Assembly: GCA_020072585.1 (NCBI GenBank)
Contig: JAIQGL010000028.1
Coordinates: 1 to 64,000, forward strand
From: Terriglobia bacterium
GTDB taxonomy: Bacteria > Acidobacteriota > Terriglobia > Terriglobales > Acidobacteriaceae
DNA length: 64,000 bases
Reading direction: 5' to 3'
The notes below the pieces were generated by a model. That model was not told where the DNA came from and did no database searches. It saw nothing but the letters and a program-made list of their open reading frames with translations. Both the position numbers and the translations under genes were made by a program. Shown in pieces: positions 48,384 through 59,840 of the stretch. Position 1 is the stretch's first letter. The number at the start of each line of letters is the position of its first letter.

Positions 48384-48869
48384 TCAACCGTTCGCGTGGG
48401 CCCGGGATTCTTTATGCAGCATGCGGACCAGGAGCAGTAATGCGCCCACCACAATGGCGCTATCGGCAACATTGAAAGGCGGCCAGTGATGCACGCCGAT
48501 ATAGAAATCCAGAAAGTCCGTGACCTTGCCGTCAGTCAGCCGGTCCCACAGATTGCCCAGAGCGCCGCCCAGGATCAGGGACAGGGCCAGAGTGCTGCCG
48601 TTAAATACGAAGCGGTCTTTCCACAGCAGTAGAGCAACCACGACCAGGGCTGCCAAGGAAAATGCGATCAGGAGTGCCGTCTTGAAAGGAGAGGTGGATT
48701 CGGCAAAGAGGCTGAAGGCCGCGCCGGGATTTTCCAGGTGCGTGAGGCGAAAGAAGCCGGGCACGATGGAGAAAGCGTCTTCCAGGGCGATGGTTTGCAC
48801 AATGGCCCACTTGGTAATGCGGTCCAGAAAAAGAACGGCGGTTGCGATCAGAAGATGGCGCTTGAGCAT
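48384..48869 (-). CDS. lspA: signal peptidase II, copy 1
   Basis: A 161-residue membrane protease that cleaves prolipoproteins. Four membrane segments, NPGAAFSLFAES, GGALGNLWDRLTDGKVTDFLD with the first catalytic Asp region and FNVADSAIVVGA with the second. It lies 8 bp after a second lspA gene, downstream of ileS. The usual order is ileS-lspA with one copy. Confidence 0.93.
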   Translation of the reverse strand: MLKRHLLIATAVLFLDRITKWAIVQTIALEDAFSIVPGFFRLTHLENPGAAFSLFAESTSPFKTALLIAFSLAALVVVALLLWKDRFVFNGSTLALSLILGGALGNLWDRLTDGKVTDFLDFYIGVHHWPPFNVADSAIVVGALLLLVRMLHKESRAHANG

Positions 48870-48877
48870 GGCGGGGC

Positions 48878-49378
48878 TTACTGGCTGACCACTTTCTCTT
48901 CCTGTTTCTCTTCCTGTGGGGCCAGGAATATCTCACTCAGCAGAAGAAGCGCGCCCACCACGATGGCGCTGTCTGCAATATTAAACGCGGGCCAATGATG
49001 GGAGCCGACATAGAAGTCCAGAAAGTCAATGACGCGCCCGCTGGTCACACGGTCCCAGAGATTGCCCAGTGCGCCTCCAAAGACCAGAGAGAGTGCGATG
49101 GCGGTGGCATTCAACGCATTGCCGTTCTTCCACAGCAGAGCGGAAACGACGGCCAGCGCAGCCAGTGAAAACAGGACGAGCATGCCCACCTTCCATTCAA
49201 AGGATGACTCGGCGAATAGGCCGAAGGCCGCGCCCTGGTTCTGTACATGGGTCAGCCGGAACATGCCGGGAATCACATCCACGCTGTCATGCAGCGTGAT
49301 CTTCTGCGCCACCAGCCACTTCGTTATCCGGTCACAGAGGAGGATCAGGCTGGCGATCATGATGTGGTACTTCCGCAT
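48878..49378 (-). CDS. lspA: signal peptidase II, copy 2
   Basis: A 166-residue paralogue from ATG 49378 (a TTG nine bases earlier is possible). It keeps the same catalytic blocks: NQGAAFGLFAES, GGALGNLWDRVTSGRVIDFLD and FNIADSAIVVGALLLL. The two proteins are clearly homologous over their whole length. The C-terminus is charged (EEKQEEKVVSQ). Gap to ileS is 54 bp, so all three genes are probably one transcript. Confidence 0.93.
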   Translation of the reverse strand: MRKYHIMIASLILLCDRITKWLVAQKITLHDSVDVIPGMFRLTHVQNQGAAFGLFAESSFEWKVGMLVLFSLAALAVVSALLWKNGNALNATAIALSLVFGGALGNLWDRVTSGRVIDFLDFYVGSHHWPAFNIADSAIVVGALLLLSEIFLAPQEEKQEEKVVSQ

Positions 49379-49432
49379 GGTGTCCAAATGACTAACCCCA
49401 AATTTGCTTTGCGGCCTTAGCCGCCAACAGCC

Positions 49433-53689: not shown

Positions 53690-53725
53690 AAGGAGAGGAG
53701 AACCTGCCTCTCCTTTTTGGTTTTT
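53690..53725 (+). terminator. terminator after TonB-like gene
   Basis: AGGAGAGG (53691-53698) pairs with CCTCTCCT (53707-53714), followed by TTTTGGTTTTT. It separates the convergent TonB-like gene and the iron operon. Confidence 0.85.
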
Positions 53726-54935
53726 AGGACTGCGTGATGACCGCTGCTTGCTGCGTGCTGCCAGCTTTTGCCGCCAGGCAGCACTCGCCTGCGGGGATGG
53801 GGCTGCCGTGGGGGCATGTGCGTGGATGCCCCAGGAACGAGCAGATTCGCTCCGTGGCCTCTGGTGAGAGGATGTGTTCAAACTTGCAGGCCTGTTCCGC
53901 GACCTCTTTTTCATCGTGAACATGGAAAGTTTGCGTGAAGAGCCGTTCCGCCAGGCGGTGCCGCCGAATGACGTCCTCAGCGCGCTTGCGGCCTTTTTCA
54001 GTGAAGATGATCATGTGATCGCCGTGGCGGGTGTGCTCCGTGGTGGGACGAAATGCCACATGGCAGCGGTTCAGCACCGGCTTGTGCGTGTGCGGCTCCA
54101 GGGCGTGTTCGGTGAGATCGACCAGGTCAAGGCTTTTCATACGCTCCAGAGCCAGACGCATAGGCAGAGCGCCTTCAACCTCCACGCGGCCCAGCTCGGC
54201 TGGCTCGCCGTTTTCCGCCAGGACCCACAGCTCTTCCAGGACCTCGTCGAACTGCTCTTCGTCGGACATGGAGAATATTTCCTGCGCGGCGATAGTGCCA
54301 TGATGCAGTTCCAGCCTGCGGTCGGCCAGGCGGGCGACCACGGGATCATGCGTAACCATGATGATGGTGCGTCCCTGAGCATGCATCTCGCGCAGCTTGC
54401 GGAGAACGATTTCCTCATTCACGGCATCGAGGTTGCCCGTGGGCTCGTCGGCCAGAATGATGTGCGGATCATTGATCAGGGCGCGGGCGATGCAGACACG
54501 CTGCTGCTCGCCGCCGGAAAGCTGCGATGGCAGGTGACCGGCGCGGTCTTTAAGGCCAACATGATCGAGCGCAGCCAGAGCTTCCGTCTTGTCCGTCATG
54601 CTGTGGAAGTATTGCGCCAGCATGATGTTCTCAAGCGCGGTGAGATACGGGATGAGATGGAACTGCTGGAAGATGAAACCAATTTTTTCCGCTCGGAAAC
54701 GGTTCAGCTCCGCCGGTGACATTTTGGAAATGTTTGTTCCGTGAATCCAGACTTCGCCCGTGGTGGGCTGGTCAAGACACCCAATCAAATTGACGAGCGT
54801 GGATTTGCCCGAACCCGAAGGCCCCATGATGGCCAGCCATTCTCCGGGAGCTACCGAGAGAGACACATCATCGAGCGCGCGGACCTCGACGTTGCTCTTA
54901 TAAACCCGGCTGACGTTTTTGAGCTCGATGGGCAT
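53724..54935 (-). CDS. ABC ATPase fused to a DtxR-family metalloregulator
   Basis: A 403-residue two-part protein. Residues 1-220 are a MacB/LolD-type ATPase: Walker [10 protein letters not shown] (38-46), signature LSGGEQQR (139-146), Walker B with ADEPTGNLD (162-170), H-loop VTHD (194-197). Residues 225-385 read as a full DtxR-like regulator: a winged-helix part ([31 protein letters not shown]), [29 protein letters not shown] and [15 protein letters not shown]. Cys350, Glu353 and His354 match DtxR Cys102, Glu105 and His106; His326 and Glu330 match His79 and Glu83; His98 is not kept. It ends the FTR1 operon, overlapping the permease gene by 1 bp. The fusion suggests iron sensing by the transporter itself or a regulator tied to it. 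Confidence 0.9.
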
Positions 54936-56029
54936 TACTCTCCTCGCAGGATACCCGCGGGCTGTATCTGTTGCAGTAATCTTAATGGAGCAGTAGAGGC
55001 GATCAGCGCCAAAATCACGCTTCCCAGCAATACCGGAAGCAAGAGCGCAGGCTGCGGCAGAATGGCAGCGTCAAAATTTGCCTTGCCAATCCAGAAAGCA
55101 ATGCCGCTGCCCAGAACATAGCCGACAGCCGATCCCGCCAGCGCCAGCAGAGCGGATTCAGAAGCGAATAGGAAGCTTACGGTGCGGTTGGAGGCCCCCA
55201 GGGCCTTCATTACGGCAAAATCCCTGCGGCGTTCCAGAACTGAGCTGGTGAAGGTGGCCGCCATGCAAAGCATAATCAACACAACCACCACAGCCGATGA
55301 CGCCAGCACCACAGAGCGCGTCTTGCCTACCACGGCGGTCTGCGCCTGCGTGATCTGCCGGACCGGCTGGACATCAGCTTCGGGCAGAGCAGTTCTGAGA
55401 CTGGAAATGGCCGCCTGAATTTCCTGGGGACGGCCTTCCACGCGGACCAGCGCGGTGTTGGGCTGAACGCCGGTCAGGCTCACGAAATCATCGAGAGGAA
55501 GATAGATGCGGCTATCATCGTCCGATCCGGAATGGAAAACTCCGGCGGCTTTTATCACGGCAGATGCCTTGCCGAACGAGAGATGCAGATCAGTACCGTG
55601 GGCAATCGTCTCATCCACACGCGAGCCAATCAGGGCATTGCCTGGGCCTGATTCACTCAGGGACCATGATGTATTGAGCCTGCGCAGCTTAATTACGTCA
55701 GCGCCGCCGACAACGATTCTTGCTCCGCTGGCAGTTTCAGTTGCGATTGCGTAAGCAACCGGCACGACTTCACCGTTGCCGCCAATGATTTTTCTGATGC
55801 CGGCCAGTTGATCGGCACTGAGGATGCCCGAAGCTCTGGTGACGAGCACATTGGCGCCAAAGCCGCGAAATTCACGGCTAAGCTTGCCTTCAAGATCAGA
55901 GTAAATGGTAAGCGCGGCGGTGGCGATGGTGGCAACCACGGCAACGGAGATCAACGCGGTCAGCGCGCGATCTTTACGCACCCATGCAGCTTTGAAGAGC
56001 AGGCGGAGAAGAAGCTGGGAGCGGGTCAT
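54935..56029 (-). CDS. MacB/FtsX-type ABC permease, second
   Basis: A 364-residue permease: an N-terminal membrane segment (ALTALISVAVVATIATAALTI), a periplasmic domain of about 200 residues, and three C-terminal membrane segments including SVLERRRDFAVMKALGASNRTVSFLF, quoted in parts, the FtsX coupling region. It shares layout with the permease upstream, giving a heteromeric pair as in the Campylobacter Ftr1/P19 locus. It overlaps its upstream neighbour by 4 bp and the ATPase gene by 1 bp. Confidence 0.88.
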   Translation of the reverse strand: MTRSQLLLRLLFKAAWVRKDRALTALISVAVVATIATAALTIYSDLEGKLSREFRGFGANVLVTRASGILSADQLAGIRKIIGGNGEVVPVAYAIATETASGARIVVGGADVIKLRRLNTSWSLSESGPGNALIGSRVDETIAHGTDLHLSFGKASAVIKAAGVFHSGSDDDSRIYLPLDDFVSLTGVQPNTALVRVEGRPQEIQAAISSLRTALPEADVQPVRQITQAQTAVVGKTRSVVLASSAVVVVLIMLCMAATFTSSVLERRRDFAVMKALGASNRTVSFLFASESALLALAGSAVGYVLGSGIAFWIGKANFDAAILPQPALLLPVLLGSVILALIASTAPLRLLQQIQPAGILRGE

Positions 56030-57312
56030 GCGTCGCCCCGCAGCACCACGGCCGGATCAAACCGCATGGCTTTGCGCACAGCTCCCGCGCTGCCGATGAA
56101 TGTGACCAGCACCGCGGCACAGAGTACAACCGCCAGCACCACGGGGTGGACTTCGATCGAGGAACCAAAGATGCTTTGGCCGATGCGATGGGCCAGCGCC
56201 GCGCCGGCAAGAAACCCAATCAGCCCGCCGGCCAGCGCAAGAAAACCAGCTTCCGTAAGAAACAGGGAAGCAACCGCGGTGTTTCCCGCGCCCAAAGACT
56301 TCATCAGCCCGACTTCCTGACGGCGCTCCAGGATGGTGGCAGCCATGGCAGCGGAGACAGCCAGCGCCGCCGCCAGAAGCGCAGCCAGCGTCAGCAGCAG
56401 CATGAGTCCGGAAACGCGTGAGAGCACCTTGCCCTGATTTTGCTCCACCTGGCGGATTTGCTCCACACGGACGTTGGGCAGGACTTCGCGAATCTGGTAG
56501 GCAATGGAGTTGGCATAAGGCGAGCAGTACCAGCGGTCCCGGATGGCCCCGGTCAAGGTCTCAGGGTCCTTGCGCGCAAACGCGTCTTCAGGCTTGGTAA
56601 GCGCGCTTACGGTTACACGCCGCACGGCATTGGGCTGGTCAAGAACCGTCTGCACGATGTGCAGAGGAGCGACCACGGCCTGGTCTTCCGCGCCACCTGA
56701 ATTCAGGATGCCGCTGACACGCAGCTTCCTTCCGCCGATTTCAATCTGGTCGCCCACGGAGATATGGGATTCCTGCGCAAGTTTGCTGCCGGCCAGAACA
56801 TCAGGCGGCTGATTCTGCGGCCACGCAGCGTAATCCTGCGGCCATTCCCCTTCGACCTTCCACCAGGGATTGACGCTGCGCACGCCGGTAGAGAACTCCT
56901 CATTGCCATAGTGAAGAGGCTGTGCAAAGTAGGTACCGATGAGCTCAGCCTTAACGTCTCCACTTGCGGTCTTGATTACCTGAGGCGCGGAAAGGAACGG
57001 CGCGTACCCTTTGACGTTATGCCCCCAGAAAATACCCTTGATCTTGATGAGCTCCTGCTCAGGAATAAAAGAGCCTTCGCTGGCCGGCTTGAGATTTACG
57101 CCGCCAATGTTTACATCGAGGGTATCTTCAATGGGAGTAATGACCAAGTTGGCGCCCAGGCTGCGCAATTCCTGGTTGATCTTGTCGCCGATGTCAGTAC
57201 CTACAGCGATCATGGCCGTGGCAATGCTCATGCCCAGCGCAATGGCCAGCAAGGCCACGCTCTTGCGCCGCTTTTGCCTACGGAATGACTCGAACAACAA
57301 TCGCAGGAACAT
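56026..57312 (-). CDS. MacB/FtsX-type ABC permease, first
   Basis: A 428-residue permease with the N-terminal helix (SVALLAIALGMSIATAMIAVG), a large periplasmic part, and C-terminal helices with ATILERRQEVGLMKSLGAGN, the family's coupling motif. The periplasmic domain includes GAIRDRWYCSPYANSIAY, a motif that I associate with the Ftr1-linked permeases. Its ATG overlaps the FTR1 stop by 1 bp (TAATG). Confidence 0.88.
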   Translation of the reverse strand: MFLRLLFESFRRQKRRKSVALLAIALGMSIATAMIAVGTDIGDKINQELRSLGANLVITPIEDTLDVNIGGVNLKPASEGSFIPEQELIKIKGIFWGHNVKGYAPFLSAPQVIKTASGDVKAELIGTYFAQPLHYGNEEFSTGVRSVNPWWKVEGEWPQDYAAWPQNQPPDVLAGSKLAQESHISVGDQIEIGGRKLRVSGILNSGGAEDQAVVAPLHIVQTVLDQPNAVRRVTVSALTKPEDAFARKDPETLTGAIRDRWYCSPYANSIAYQIREVLPNVRVEQIRQVEQNQGKVLSRVSGLMLLLTLAALLAAALAVSAAMAATILERRQEVGLMKSLGAGNTAVASLFLTEAGFLALAGGLIGFLAGAALAHRIGQSIFGSSIEVHPVVLAVVLCAAVLVTFIGSAGAVRKAMRFDPAVVLRGDA

Positions 57313-58565
57313 TACTTTGAGAATTGCCCAGCTTGCTGGGCCACGTCAGTGATGGAGATCACAACCGAATCGCCATCCTGAGCCGATTGCAGGGGAATGG
57401 GATTGCAGCCACCGGGCTGGCCCACGCTCTGCGGGTTGATGGGAGCAGCGCAATTCTTGCAGATGATCCCGGCGGAGCCCTTATAAAAGCCCACGCCGCC
57501 ACAGATCTGGCAGGCGTCAAAGACTGAAGCGATCTTGCCATCGGGCTTGCGATAAAGCAGGAAACGCACCTTGGTGCCGTTCACGTTGGCGCTATAGCGC
57601 TGCAGTTCACCCTGCGGCAGGTCTTTGGTGGAGATTACGGCTTTACCGTTGGTGAAACTCACTTCCGTAGCTTGCGAGAGCGGCGGAGGACCTTCCGCAT
57701 AAATGACCTCAGCGGTAATCGTGGTAATGAACACAAAAGCCGTCACGCAGACCAGGACGGCCCATAAGCGCTCCCGCTGTGCCGTCCACAACTGCTTCCG
57801 CTCTTCAGCCTTGCTGGCGGGGACTGCGATGGCTTCCGGCTTGCGGCGGCGGTATTCCAGCAAGATCATCAGAACGACCAGCGCAAGCATGGTGACAGGG
57901 AAGAAGTAGTCATTGCGCGCGATGGGCCCAATGAGTGACATCTCCCTTTTGCTGGATGGGAGAACGCCCGACTCAGAAAGTTCATGCAGTCCGGAGATAA
58001 TCAGCTGTGCCGCAACGAAGAAAAGAATGACCGTGGTTACCTTGAAGAACTTGCGCAAATCGATGCGCACGCTGCCTTTCACGAACATCACGCCAAAGAC
58101 GACGGCCAAGGCCACGCCGAGGAGCGTTCCCAAAAAGCTCATTAGCTCGGTGGAATTGAGAGACACGCCGGCAAGAATCGCCACGGTTTCAATTCCTTCG
58201 CGAAAGACCATGAGAAAAACAAAGGCAAACAGGCCCCATTGAGAGCCTCCACCCGCCAGGGAACCGACTTTGGTTTCAATCTCGCCCTTGAGCTTGCGCG
58301 CGGTGCGCATCATGAAAATGACCATGCTGATGACGAAAACGGCGGCCACCAGCATGACCCAGCCTTCCACCTTGTCCTGATTGATGGGCGCGTAGGAGAG
58401 AGCGATTGCGCCGGCGATGCTGCCAACCAGGGCGGCAGCCAGGGCATAATAGACGGTACGGCGCAGGTCAGGGCGGCCAATTTTGGCCAGGTAGACCAGG
58501 GTGATGCCCACGATTAACGCGGCTTCAACCCCCTCCCGTAATGTCACCACCAGGGCGGAGAACAT
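57312..58565 (-). CDS. FTR1 iron permease fused to DUF2318-like cysteine domain
   Basis: A 417-residue protein. Residues 1-235 are an FTR1/EfeU permease with both iron-binding REGxE motifs, REGVEA (Arg10-Glu14) and REGIET (Arg122-Glu126), and about seven membrane segments. After an added membrane segment near 270-288, residues 295-415 form a periplasmic DUF2318-like domain with FDACQICGGVGFYKG (Cys352, Cys355), IICKNCAAPIN (Cys369, Cys372) and GGCNPIPL (Cys387), which suggests a metal or Fe-S site. In Campylobacter these are separate proteins (Cj1658 and Cj1660). It is the first gene of the operon, 19 bp after a Fur-box-like site. Confidence 0.9.
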   Translation of the reverse strand: MFSALVVTLREGVEAALIVGITLVYLAKIGRPDLRRTVYYALAAALVGSIAGAIALSYAPINQDKVEGWVMLVAAVFVISMVIFMMRTARKLKGEIETKVGSLAGGGSQWGLFAFVFLMVFREGIETVAILAGVSLNSTELMSFLGTLLGVALAVVFGVMFVKGSVRIDLRKFFKVTTVILFFVAAQLIISGLHELSESGVLPSSKREMSLIGPIARNDYFFPVTMLALVVLMILLEYRRRKPEAIAVPASKAEERKQLWTAQRERLWAVLVCVTAFVFITTITAEVIYAEGPPPLSQATEVSFTNGKAVISTKDLPQGELQRYSANVNGTKVRFLLYRKPDGKIASVFDACQICGGVGFYKGSAGIICKNCAAPINPQSVGQPGGCNPIPLQSAQDGDSVVISITDVAQQAGQFSK

Positions 58566-58583
58566 GTGATCAGCGCTCGATTA

Positions 58584-58598
58584 TGAAAATGAATTTCA
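58584..58598 (-). promoter_or_regulatory. Fur box upstream of the FTR1 operon
   Basis: TGAAAATGAATTTCA matches the 7-1-7 Fur consensus TGATAATnATTATCA at 12 of 14 defined positions. It lies 19 bp before the FTR1 ATG, within a longer run of TGAAAT/ATTTCA units to about 58620, and overlaps CATAAT (minus strand), a likely -10 box. Iron-dependent repression of the operon is the natural reading. Confidence 0.7.
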
Positions 58599-58830
58599 AT
58601 TTCAATTTCAATTAGAAATTGTACCGAGCCGGGGGAGGGCAGTCAACAAAATGAAAATGCAGGACAAAAATGCATTTGGCCCCGGTGGAAAGCATGTGGA
58701 AGCGTGGTTTCCCCTTTTGGCATGAACACCGGGTATGGACACCTGAGGCCGGGCGTGAACGCGAAGCGCGCCCGGCAGGATACGACTCCGCATGCACAAT
58801 CCTGGTTCCAATACGGGAGAGTGAAGTGCT

Positions 58831-59249: not shown

Positions 59250-59840
59250 CTACCTGCTGAAGGCTGCGCGGTCCTCCACGATCAGAGTCAATGCCTCAGT
59301 GTCGATATTGAAGAGATAGCCGTAGATGTCCACATTCTTCGGTGTTCCCTTCCATTCCCGAAAGAGGCGTGTGTCGCGCTTGAGTGAGGATTCATAGTCC
59401 GCAATGGCAATGTTGGACCGGTCATAGAGGGCTGAAATATCGACGCCCTGCTCGGTGTTGAAGGCTGCGATCAGTCCCTCGGGCGTGAATGACGTGGCGC
59501 CGCAGTACGTGTGGTGGACCACAACAATGTTCCTGATTCCAAACAGATGCTGGGCGACCGTGATGGAACGGAGTGCGTCCACGGCACGTCCGCCGGCGAC
59601 TACGACCGGGAAAATAGTTGTGGTGGAAGCGATCTTCCTGCCGCCGTCATCGTGAATGATCTGGCCGGGGTACACTTCGCCGCGCATTGCTTTGGCTACA
59701 GCATGCGGAATATTCACGGCTCGCGGGTCGTAACAGTAGACGACAACAGTCCGCAATGGAACGGCCTGCTTGAATGCTTTCCGCATCTCGGTCTCAACGA
59801 ATCCCGGCTGCTTCGAAAATGCATAGGTATCAAAATCCAT
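59250..59840 (-). CDS. beta-class carbonic-anhydrase-like protein
   Basis: A 196-residue protein with Cys36-x-Asp38-x-Arg40 (VVYCYDPRAVN) and His110-x2-Cys113 (HHTYCGATSF), the zinc ligands and Asp/Arg pair of beta-carbonic anhydrases. AAGGAGGAG precedes the ATG. With the AhpD-like gene it forms a short unit divergent from a TetR regulator. Some relatives hydrolyse CS2 or COS instead of hydrating CO2. Confidence 0.85.
   Translation of the reverse strand: MDFDTYAFSKQPGFVETEMRKAFKQAVPLRTVVVYCYDPRAVNIPHAVAKAMRGEVYPGQIIHDDGGRKIASTTTIFPVVVAGGRAVDALRSITVAQHLFGIRNIVVVHHTYCGATSFTPEGLIAAFNTEQGVDISALYDRSNIAIADYESSLKRDTRLFREWKGTPKNVDIYGYLFNIDTEALTLIVEDRAAFSR

Follow-up and report, generated by a model that had tools for sequence, protein, structure and literature searches.

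A DtxR-type metal-binding domain fused to the ABC ATPase of an iron-uptake operon in Acidobacteriota

In a member of the Acidobacteriota, the ABC ATPase of an FTR1-type iron-uptake operon is joined in a single reading frame to a DtxR-type metal-binding and dimerization domain. The metal ligands and the fold of this domain are kept, and its DNA-reading half is degraded. On balance we think it probable that the fused domain provides allosteric metal feedback on the ATPase of a Fur-controlled FTR1/FtrD/FetBC iron-uptake system. Bacteria are described as controlling their iron uptake mainly by repressing genes; with a sensor on the ATPase itself, feedback would be direct and fast.

The DNA analyzed here, called the window throughout, is a stretch of 64,000 nucleotides (contig JAIQGL010000028.1, from a Terriglobia bacterium). 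An initial annotation of its sequence described the fusion; we follow up its claims with profile searches, predicted structures, genome comparisons and an analysis of the upstream DNA. Coordinates are collected in Table 1.

RESULTS

An ATPase and a DtxR-type domain share one reading frame

The open reading frame begins with ATG and runs free of stops. Pfam places ABC_tran at residues 21-166 of the protein (E 1.8e-36) and Fe_dep_repr_C (PF02742) at residues 312-381 of the same protein (E 9.8e-28). The PF02742 profile scores 96.4 bits against a curated cut-off of 27, matches 20 of 20 fusions scanned, and finds nothing else in the source genome. Both domains do lie in one frame, as first annotated; the frame runs on the minus strand.

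In the first half, the Walker A motif, Q-loop, LSGGEQQR signature, DEPTGNLD sequence and H-loop are invariant or nearly so across 21 fusions. This half superimposes on MacB (5lj9) with a Z-score of 25.3 and an rmsd of 2.5 over 213 aligned residues. By motifs and fold it is a MacB/LolD-type ABC ATPase.

Is the joined frame real? Two genes might have been joined artefactually, or an internal start might yield two proteins. The annotation had stated that there is no start between the domains; there is in fact an in-frame ATG (M223) at the boundary, which speaks for the second version. In several relatives, however, including L003, which is the nearest, this codon reads CTT, ATC or CTC, so the internal start is not conserved; we reject it as a conserved feature, and M223 is probably not a start. 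The same joined frame also occurs in dozens of genomes. Across 120 genomes of the same family, the sensor half has 60 strong matches (E<=1e-24), spread over 59 genomes. Frames of at least 390 amino acids hold 53 of these matches; the remaining 7 fall in shorter ones, and in at least one case (L014) a contig end truncates the frame at its start. The recurrence rules out the sequencing error that the annotation had named as a possible refutation. The fusion is an intact open reading frame, and an artefact or a pair of separately started proteins is exceedingly improbable.

Table 1. Features of the fused gene and its operon
Feature	Position	Strand	Basis or detail
FetD-type ABC ATPase + DtxR-type metal-binding/dimerization domain	53724..54935	minus	403 aa
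ATPase half, residues 1-219	54279..54935	minus	motifs, MacB fold match
DtxR-type half, residues 220-403	53727..54278	minus	Pfam, predicted structure, DtxR fold match
In-frame ATG (M223) at domain boundary	54267..54269	minus	codon comparison with relatives
His/Cys wing insert, about 30 residues, 271-305	54021..54125	minus	alignment
Metal-binding and dimerization region, residues 306-388	53772..54020	minus	Pfam, alignment
FetC-type permease, FtsX C-terminal domain	54935..56029	minus	Pfam; stop overlaps ATPase start (TAATG)
FetB-type permease, MacB_PCD + FtsX	56026..57312	minus	Pfam
FTR1 iron permease fused to FtrD-like (FetA) domain	57312..58565	minus	Pfam
Fur-type box array over operon start region	58582..58614	minus	core TGAAATTCATTTTCA at 58584-58598, flanking repeats
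Sigma-70-like promoter, TTGACT-17-TACAAT (10/12)	58618..58646	minus	motif search

The fused gene closes a set of four minus-strand genes with overlapping starts and stops (TAATG, ATGA, TAATG), ordered FTR1 plus FtrD-like, MacB/FtsX permease, FtsX permease and fused ATPase. The first of these bears out the claimed linkage to Ftr1. The next gene after the ATPase lies on the opposite strand, and there is no thioredoxin there. The source genome, which is 96.8% complete, holds one fur gene that we could find, no match to FetP (PF10634) and none to the C-terminus of FeoB (FeoB_C, PF07664). Judged by its genes, the operon is a FetM-FetABCD-like iron-uptake system without FetP.

Two other features of the minus strand of the window may be recorded. 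A tandem pair of lspA (signal peptidase II) genes lies at 48384-48869 and 48878-49387 (Peptidase_A8, 2.7e-40 and 4.7e-41), beside a long frame that we take to be ileS. A small carbonic-anhydrase-like protein is encoded at 59250-59840; its Pro_CA match is weak (E 0.0021) and below the cut-off.

The metal-binding half is conserved

The AlphaFold model of the full-length protein is moderate (pTM 0.56), and the best 50 fold matches listed for it are all ATPases; for these reasons we folded the sensor half separately. Modelled alone, it is confident (pLDDT 93.1, pTM 0.87). It matches IdeR and DtxR in Foldseek (1e-7) and superimposes on DtxR (2qq9) with a Z-score of 17.7 and an rmsd of 2.0 over 134 aligned residues.

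Residues C350, E353 and H354 correspond to C102, E105 and H106 of DtxR, and H326 and E330 to H79 and E83. E330, C350, E353 and H354 are kept in all 34 aligned fusions, so the annotation was right that the three primary ligands Cys350, Glu353 and His354 survive. H326 is present in 29 of the 34, with Gln in the other 5. The annotation was also right that His98 is replaced: the position is A346 in the source protein and, across the 34 fusions, Glu in 27 and Ala in 7. At the position of DtxR Met10 stands Glu231 (Glu in 32 of 34), and E234 is kept in 33 of 34. We take Glu234 to be the position of MntR Glu11; a Glu at the Met10 position is presumably nearer to MntR Asp8.

In comparisons with the three closest relatives, the dN/dS of the metal/dimer half and of the ATPase half is 0.011 versus 0.029 (L003), 0.042 versus 0.063 (L004) and 0.040 versus 0.024 (L018), rough values because synonymous sites are saturated or nearly so. 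In these three, the metal/dimer half is under purifying selection about as strong as that on the ATPase half. In L021 it is less constrained (0.125 versus 0.074), and in farther relatives the values rise to 0.2 or are incomputable.

Might the domain have no regulatory role, and serve instead as a structural clamp or as the permease's iron acceptor? It does belong to the cytoplasmic part of the uptake complex, and versions of the operon with a bare ATPase exist (see below). A sensor-type site and a dimer fold retained under the ATPase-like selection just described fit sensing better, and we consider a purely passive role distinctly improbable.

A second set of residues, C365, H370, C374, H376, C385 and C386, is invariant in 47 of 47 aligned fused and stand-alone relatives. 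Within the wing, an insert adds H277, H282, H284, C291 and H292, which are invariant in 20 of 20 same-family fusions and missing from 14 deeper fusions and 13 stand-alone relatives. These residues allow a different reading, in which the C-terminal Cys/His set and the wing insert hold an Fe-S cluster or a second metal and couple the ATPase to redox state. It gains from the invariance of both sets, from a degenerate fusion (L106) that has lost the DtxR site and keeps CPHG, and from the redox link that has been proposed for the Fet system (PMC10783030). The classical Cys/Glu/His site, on the other hand, is also kept in every one of the 34 aligned fusions. The Cys/His spacing, moreover, fits no cluster motif that we can name. 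A redox or Fe-S role of these residues is a serious rival or addition to metal feedback, even if we think it quite unlikely to be the better account.

The DNA-reading half is degraded

PF01325, the DtxR DNA-binding domain, has no match in the source protein at E<=1 and is matched in just 1 of 20 fusions (E 0.065). In the confident model of the sensor half, helix 2 of the helix-turn-helix is absent. The structure prediction that the annotation had called for gives a confident DtxR-type fold that lacks a helix of the DNA-binding motif. Of its statement that all parts of a DtxR regulator are present, winged helix included, what stands is a complete metal-binding and dimerization half; the rest has no helix 2, no PF01325 match and an insert in the wing. 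Matches to PF01325 are poor in the stand-alone relatives too (6 of 14, best 0.0027), so the weak helix-turn-helix partly characterizes the subfamily as a whole. Where DtxR has Gln43, 20 of 20 same-family fusions have a hydrophobic residue (Leu, Ile or Met); the deeper fusions differ among themselves there, 3 of 14 having Gln, and the alignment is gappy at this place. From helix 1 to the wing, net charge averages -12.7. With helix 2 absent and PF01325 unmatched, the fused domain is not filed as a transcriptional repressor.

Could it still be one, tethered to the membrane or cleaved off, and repress iron genes when iron-bound? There is a precedent in YtgCR, an ABC permease with a cleaved C-terminal DtxR-like repressor (PMC7755916). 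The fusion also holds the only DtxR-family domain found in the source genome, and its sensor half resembles DNA-bound IdeR in fold. The lost helix, the failure of PF01325 in the source protein and in 19 of 20 fusions, the hydrophobic Gln43 position of the same-family fusions, the His/Cys insert and the negative charge all argue against such a factor, as does the DNA upstream of the operon.

The upstream region carries a Fur-type site

The initial annotation proposed 58584-58620 as the DNA target of the DtxR domain. What lies there is a Fur-type box. Its core, TGAAWWTCATTTTCA, precedes FTR1 in all 15 same-family fused operons read, in each of which no more than 2 of 100 single-base shuffles attain the score for the 19-base Fur consensus; the 7-1-7 form of the site is less clear in L017, where 13 of 100 shuffles reach the score. 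Across the source genome, the Fur-type pattern with up to one mismatch has 22 matches, versus 1 for the reversed pattern. Exactly two are perfect: the one before this operon and one 32 nt before the first ATG of fur. We read six one-mismatch regions. Of these, five fall within open frames, possibly by chance, and for this reason we give weight only to the exact matches and to the sixth, a cluster at a gene start on contig C35. There (L091, G000:C35:74500-81500), overlapping Fur-type sites at about 3366 stand at the start of a 308-amino-acid frame that is followed by a small cytochrome c.

DtxR and MntR boxes fare differently. In every operon the best upstream DtxR-box score is reached by at least 12% of 100 single-base shuffles (89% in the window), and for MntR boxes nothing stands out, at least 19% of shuffles reaching the best score. 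Scores so commonly reached led us to reject a DtxR or MntR operator here. With a Fur-type box both before this operon and before the single fur gene, transcription of the operon is best given to Fur, whose control we presume from these sites. A released or tethered DtxR-type repressor is, for all of these reasons, unlikely.

Sigma-70-like promoters in the region number 2, against a chance expectation of 2.1; the candidate in Table 1 is favoured because it is placed just before the Fur-type box. Beyond this family the site does not hold generally: in the two deeper fused operons that we checked (L106 and L108), the 300 nt before FTR1 contain no Fur-type core. At L108 (G143:C26:14800-20800, 1-448), where the DNA was read by eye, the fused-type operon seems to lie directly 3' of the end of a fur gene.

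Same-family operons with an unfused ATPase (L098-L102) have a different upstream site, GACYRWWWYAGTC, which precedes FTR1 in 5 of 5 of them versus 0 of 15 fused operons; L102 alone among the five also has a Fur-like site. The GACYRWWWYAGTC site resembles what we take to be the core of an IscR type 1 box. In the sequences read, loss of the sensor goes with changed promoter control.

The fusion recurs in the phylum, with a probable loss in one lineage

The annotation had suggested a search for the two-domain architecture across genomes. We searched 396 genomes of the phylum, scoring the best 8 candidates in each, and found the domain (E<=1e-15) in at least 72 genomes, at no fewer than 74 places. 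At least 22 of the 53 long FTR1-FtrD frames in these genomes have the domain within 6 kb, and all of those places are in frames of 355 amino acids or more. The remaining places, at least 52, lie away from FtrD in frames of 183-376 amino acids; 8 of these frames exceed 300 amino acids, and the 5 that we read are all stand-alone (G381, G124, G226, G293 and G367). The loci that we read outside the family of the source genome are true fusions in families f19, f23, f44, f49, f61, f67 and f81, whereas that in f69 is degenerate. In all, 8 of the Acidobacteriota families sampled contain the fusion, and the idea that it is a local oddity is rejected.

Thirty-one long FTR1-FtrD frames among the 396 genomes have no scored domain match nearby. 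In six cases the contig stops short of the ATPase (G129, G155, G322, G398, G440 and G459); one belongs to a degenerate fusion, three are unfused (G012, G124 and G394) and 21 belong to a single genus, of which we read four, each unfused. The degenerate fusion (L106, G308:C1:5500-14500, frame from about 3713) has lost C102, E105 and H106 and keeps CPHG. At one unfused locus (L103, G394:C120:1-5200) the ATPase bears a short extra tail with CPNCG, perhaps another metal site. In total we read seven unfused operons, four of them from the 21 genomes of the one same-family genus; the operon can thus do without the sensor.

The sensor-half tree separates 34 fused sequences (93/82) from 13 stand-alone ones (87/66), with 2 ordinary DtxR proteins outside; support is moderate and the bootstrap unsettled, and the topology looks like the product of one old fusion event. 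The tree of the ATPase half has 49 fused rows, including the degenerate L106 and one locus entered twice (L137 = L013), and labels L022 as unfused solely because its contig ends inside the domain. In it the same-family unfused ATPases (G012 and the four genomes of the one genus) nest inside the fused group, a placement supported by a single branch (95/83); the positions of the unfused L103 and L107 are less certain. Because they are nested, the same-family bare ATPases look like sensor losses. This bears on another refutation foreseen by the annotation, namely close relatives with separate ATPase and DtxR genes, and the outcome is mixed. Five same-family operons do have a bare ATPase, with no sensor gene in the roughly 3-4 kb fetched downstream, and the tree suggests losses.

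In the phylum of G500, which contains L039, we scored the best 14 candidates in each of 247 genomes. At least 97 have the domain, and the frames listed are at most 301 amino acids long, with one exception. That exception, a 427-amino-acid frame in G536, was rejected as a fusion on reading: it is an ordinary DtxR with open frame before it. The 10 places read in this phylum (L122-L131) are stand-alone in each case. The sampling covers almost only these two phyla, so the fusion may not be restricted to Acidobacteriota.

The nearest stand-alone relatives lie beside feoB at the loci read

The nearest non-fused relatives of the sensor half that we found are DtxR-FeoA proteins of about 215 residues, with an FeoA domain in 14 of 14 scanned. 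That domain should be read with caution, because ordinary DtxR proteins likewise carry a FeoA-type, SH3-like domain at their C-terminal end. At the three loci read (L035, L039 and L040), the DtxR-FeoA gene lies just 3' of feoB, in L035 with one nuclease-like gene in between, and fur precedes feoB at two of the three. In 3 of 5 genomes (G497, G498 and G501, with L035, L036 and L040) this gene holds the only FeoA domain found; in two Geobacter-type genomes other FeoA domains were found as well. The proximity to feoB, together with the FeoA domain, suggests that the sensor subfamily may act on transporters more widely.

DISCUSSION

How might a DtxR-type domain regulate an ATPase? ABC ATPases such as FetD must dimerize to hydrolyze ATP, and DtxR domains are established dimers, which would allow a pair of sensor domains to form underneath the ATPases. 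We propose that when two FetD copies come together for hydrolysis, their DtxR-type domains would lie side by side beneath them. Cytoplasmic Fe2+, or possibly Mn2+, would fill the site formed by E231, E234, C350, E353 and H354. The metal-filled pair would tighten and hold the ATPases in a non-cycling state, and ATP-driven support of iron uptake would then stop. Such trans-inhibition is proposed for iron on the precedent of MetN and ModC, in which C-terminal domains of the ATPase (C2 in MetN) bind cytoplasmic substrate and block the cycle (PMC10710835). That metal binds, how the dimer is arranged, that Fur controls the operon and that the effect is inhibition are all inferred; metal could instead activate the ATPase. 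Support for this account comes from the recurrence and conservation of the fusion, the kept ligands, the degraded DNA-reading half, the Fur-type sites, the lack of any other PF02742 or FeoB_C match in the genome, the precedent of MetN and ModC, and the stand-alone relatives beside feoB. Against it count the operons that do without the sensor, the ligand loss in L106, the poor PF01325 matches of the stand-alone relatives and the deeper fusions with Gln at the Gln43 position, the lack of a Fur-type core in L106 and L108, the rough dN/dS values with weaker constraint in L021, the low pTM of the full-length model, and the unsettled role of FetBCD.

The initial annotation had offered two roles for the fusion. 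Gating of transport by cytoplasmic iron is now the better supported; the membrane-tethered regulator is weakened by the degraded helix-turn-helix, the hydrophobic Gln43 position and the Fur-type box.

A broader possibility is that one DtxR-family branch gave up DNA and became a protein-level governor of iron importers, as the FetD fusion in Acidobacteriota and maybe as DtxR-FeoA beside FeoB. This is tentative, and we incline slightly against it; if true, there would be a fast allosteric brake on iron import besides Fur. The presence of the fusion in many soil Acidobacteriota suggests that iron import is throttled at the transporter, beyond gene switching. If metal feedback is correct, iron would have a feedback loop akin to those of MetN and ModC, and a repressor domain would have been reused as an enzyme regulator. 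Even for the Campylobacter system, the substrate of FetBCD and its function are unsettled (PMC10783030). A built-in sensor would give a handle on the role of this puzzling ATPase, and relatives with and without the domain provide a natural comparison.

The closest parallel to the operon is FetMP-FetABCDEF (P19) of Campylobacter jejuni, which shares the gene order, from FTR1 through a DUF2318/FtrD protein and two permeases to the ATPase, and likewise has a Fur box upstream (PMC10783030 and PMC6083913). The operon here differs in having neither FetP nor a thioredoxin after the ATPase, in carrying FTR1 and FtrD in one protein, and in the DtxR domain of its ATPase.

The C-terminal domain of ModC resembles that of the ModE repressor. 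MetN (C2) and ModC are like the fusion in having a dimeric C-terminal ATPase domain placed to sense cytoplasmic substrate (PMC10710835). Unlike theirs, the domain here is of DtxR type, and the ATPase serves FtsX/MacB-type permeases beside FTR1 rather than a substrate-translocating importer; inhibition is presumed.

Chlamydia YtgCR also joins an ABC transporter subunit to a C-terminal DtxR-like domain (PMC7755916). In YtgCR it is the permease that carries the domain, and cleavage releases the repressor to bind DNA; in our case the ATPase carries a domain whose DNA-reading half is degraded. That worn half, with the Fur-type site, makes a similar release less likely in our case. YtgCR apart, the open literature, covered by titles and the beginnings of abstracts and exclusive of subscription papers and preprints, yielded no fusion of an ABC ATPase to DtxR.

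The stand-alone DtxR-FeoA proteins (L035, L039 and L040) share with the sensor half the Cys/Glu/His site and the C..H..CPHG..IP.G.CC ending; unlike the fusion they are separate, without an ATPase, and have an FeoA domain at the end. With DtxR, IdeR and MntR the sensor half shares the metal-binding and dimerization fold; unlike them it has Glu for Met10, no His98, a degraded helix-turn-helix and no third (SH3-like) domain. ABC ATPases that sense substrate through a C-terminal domain are known; new, to our knowledge, is a DtxR domain in that place, in this iron system.
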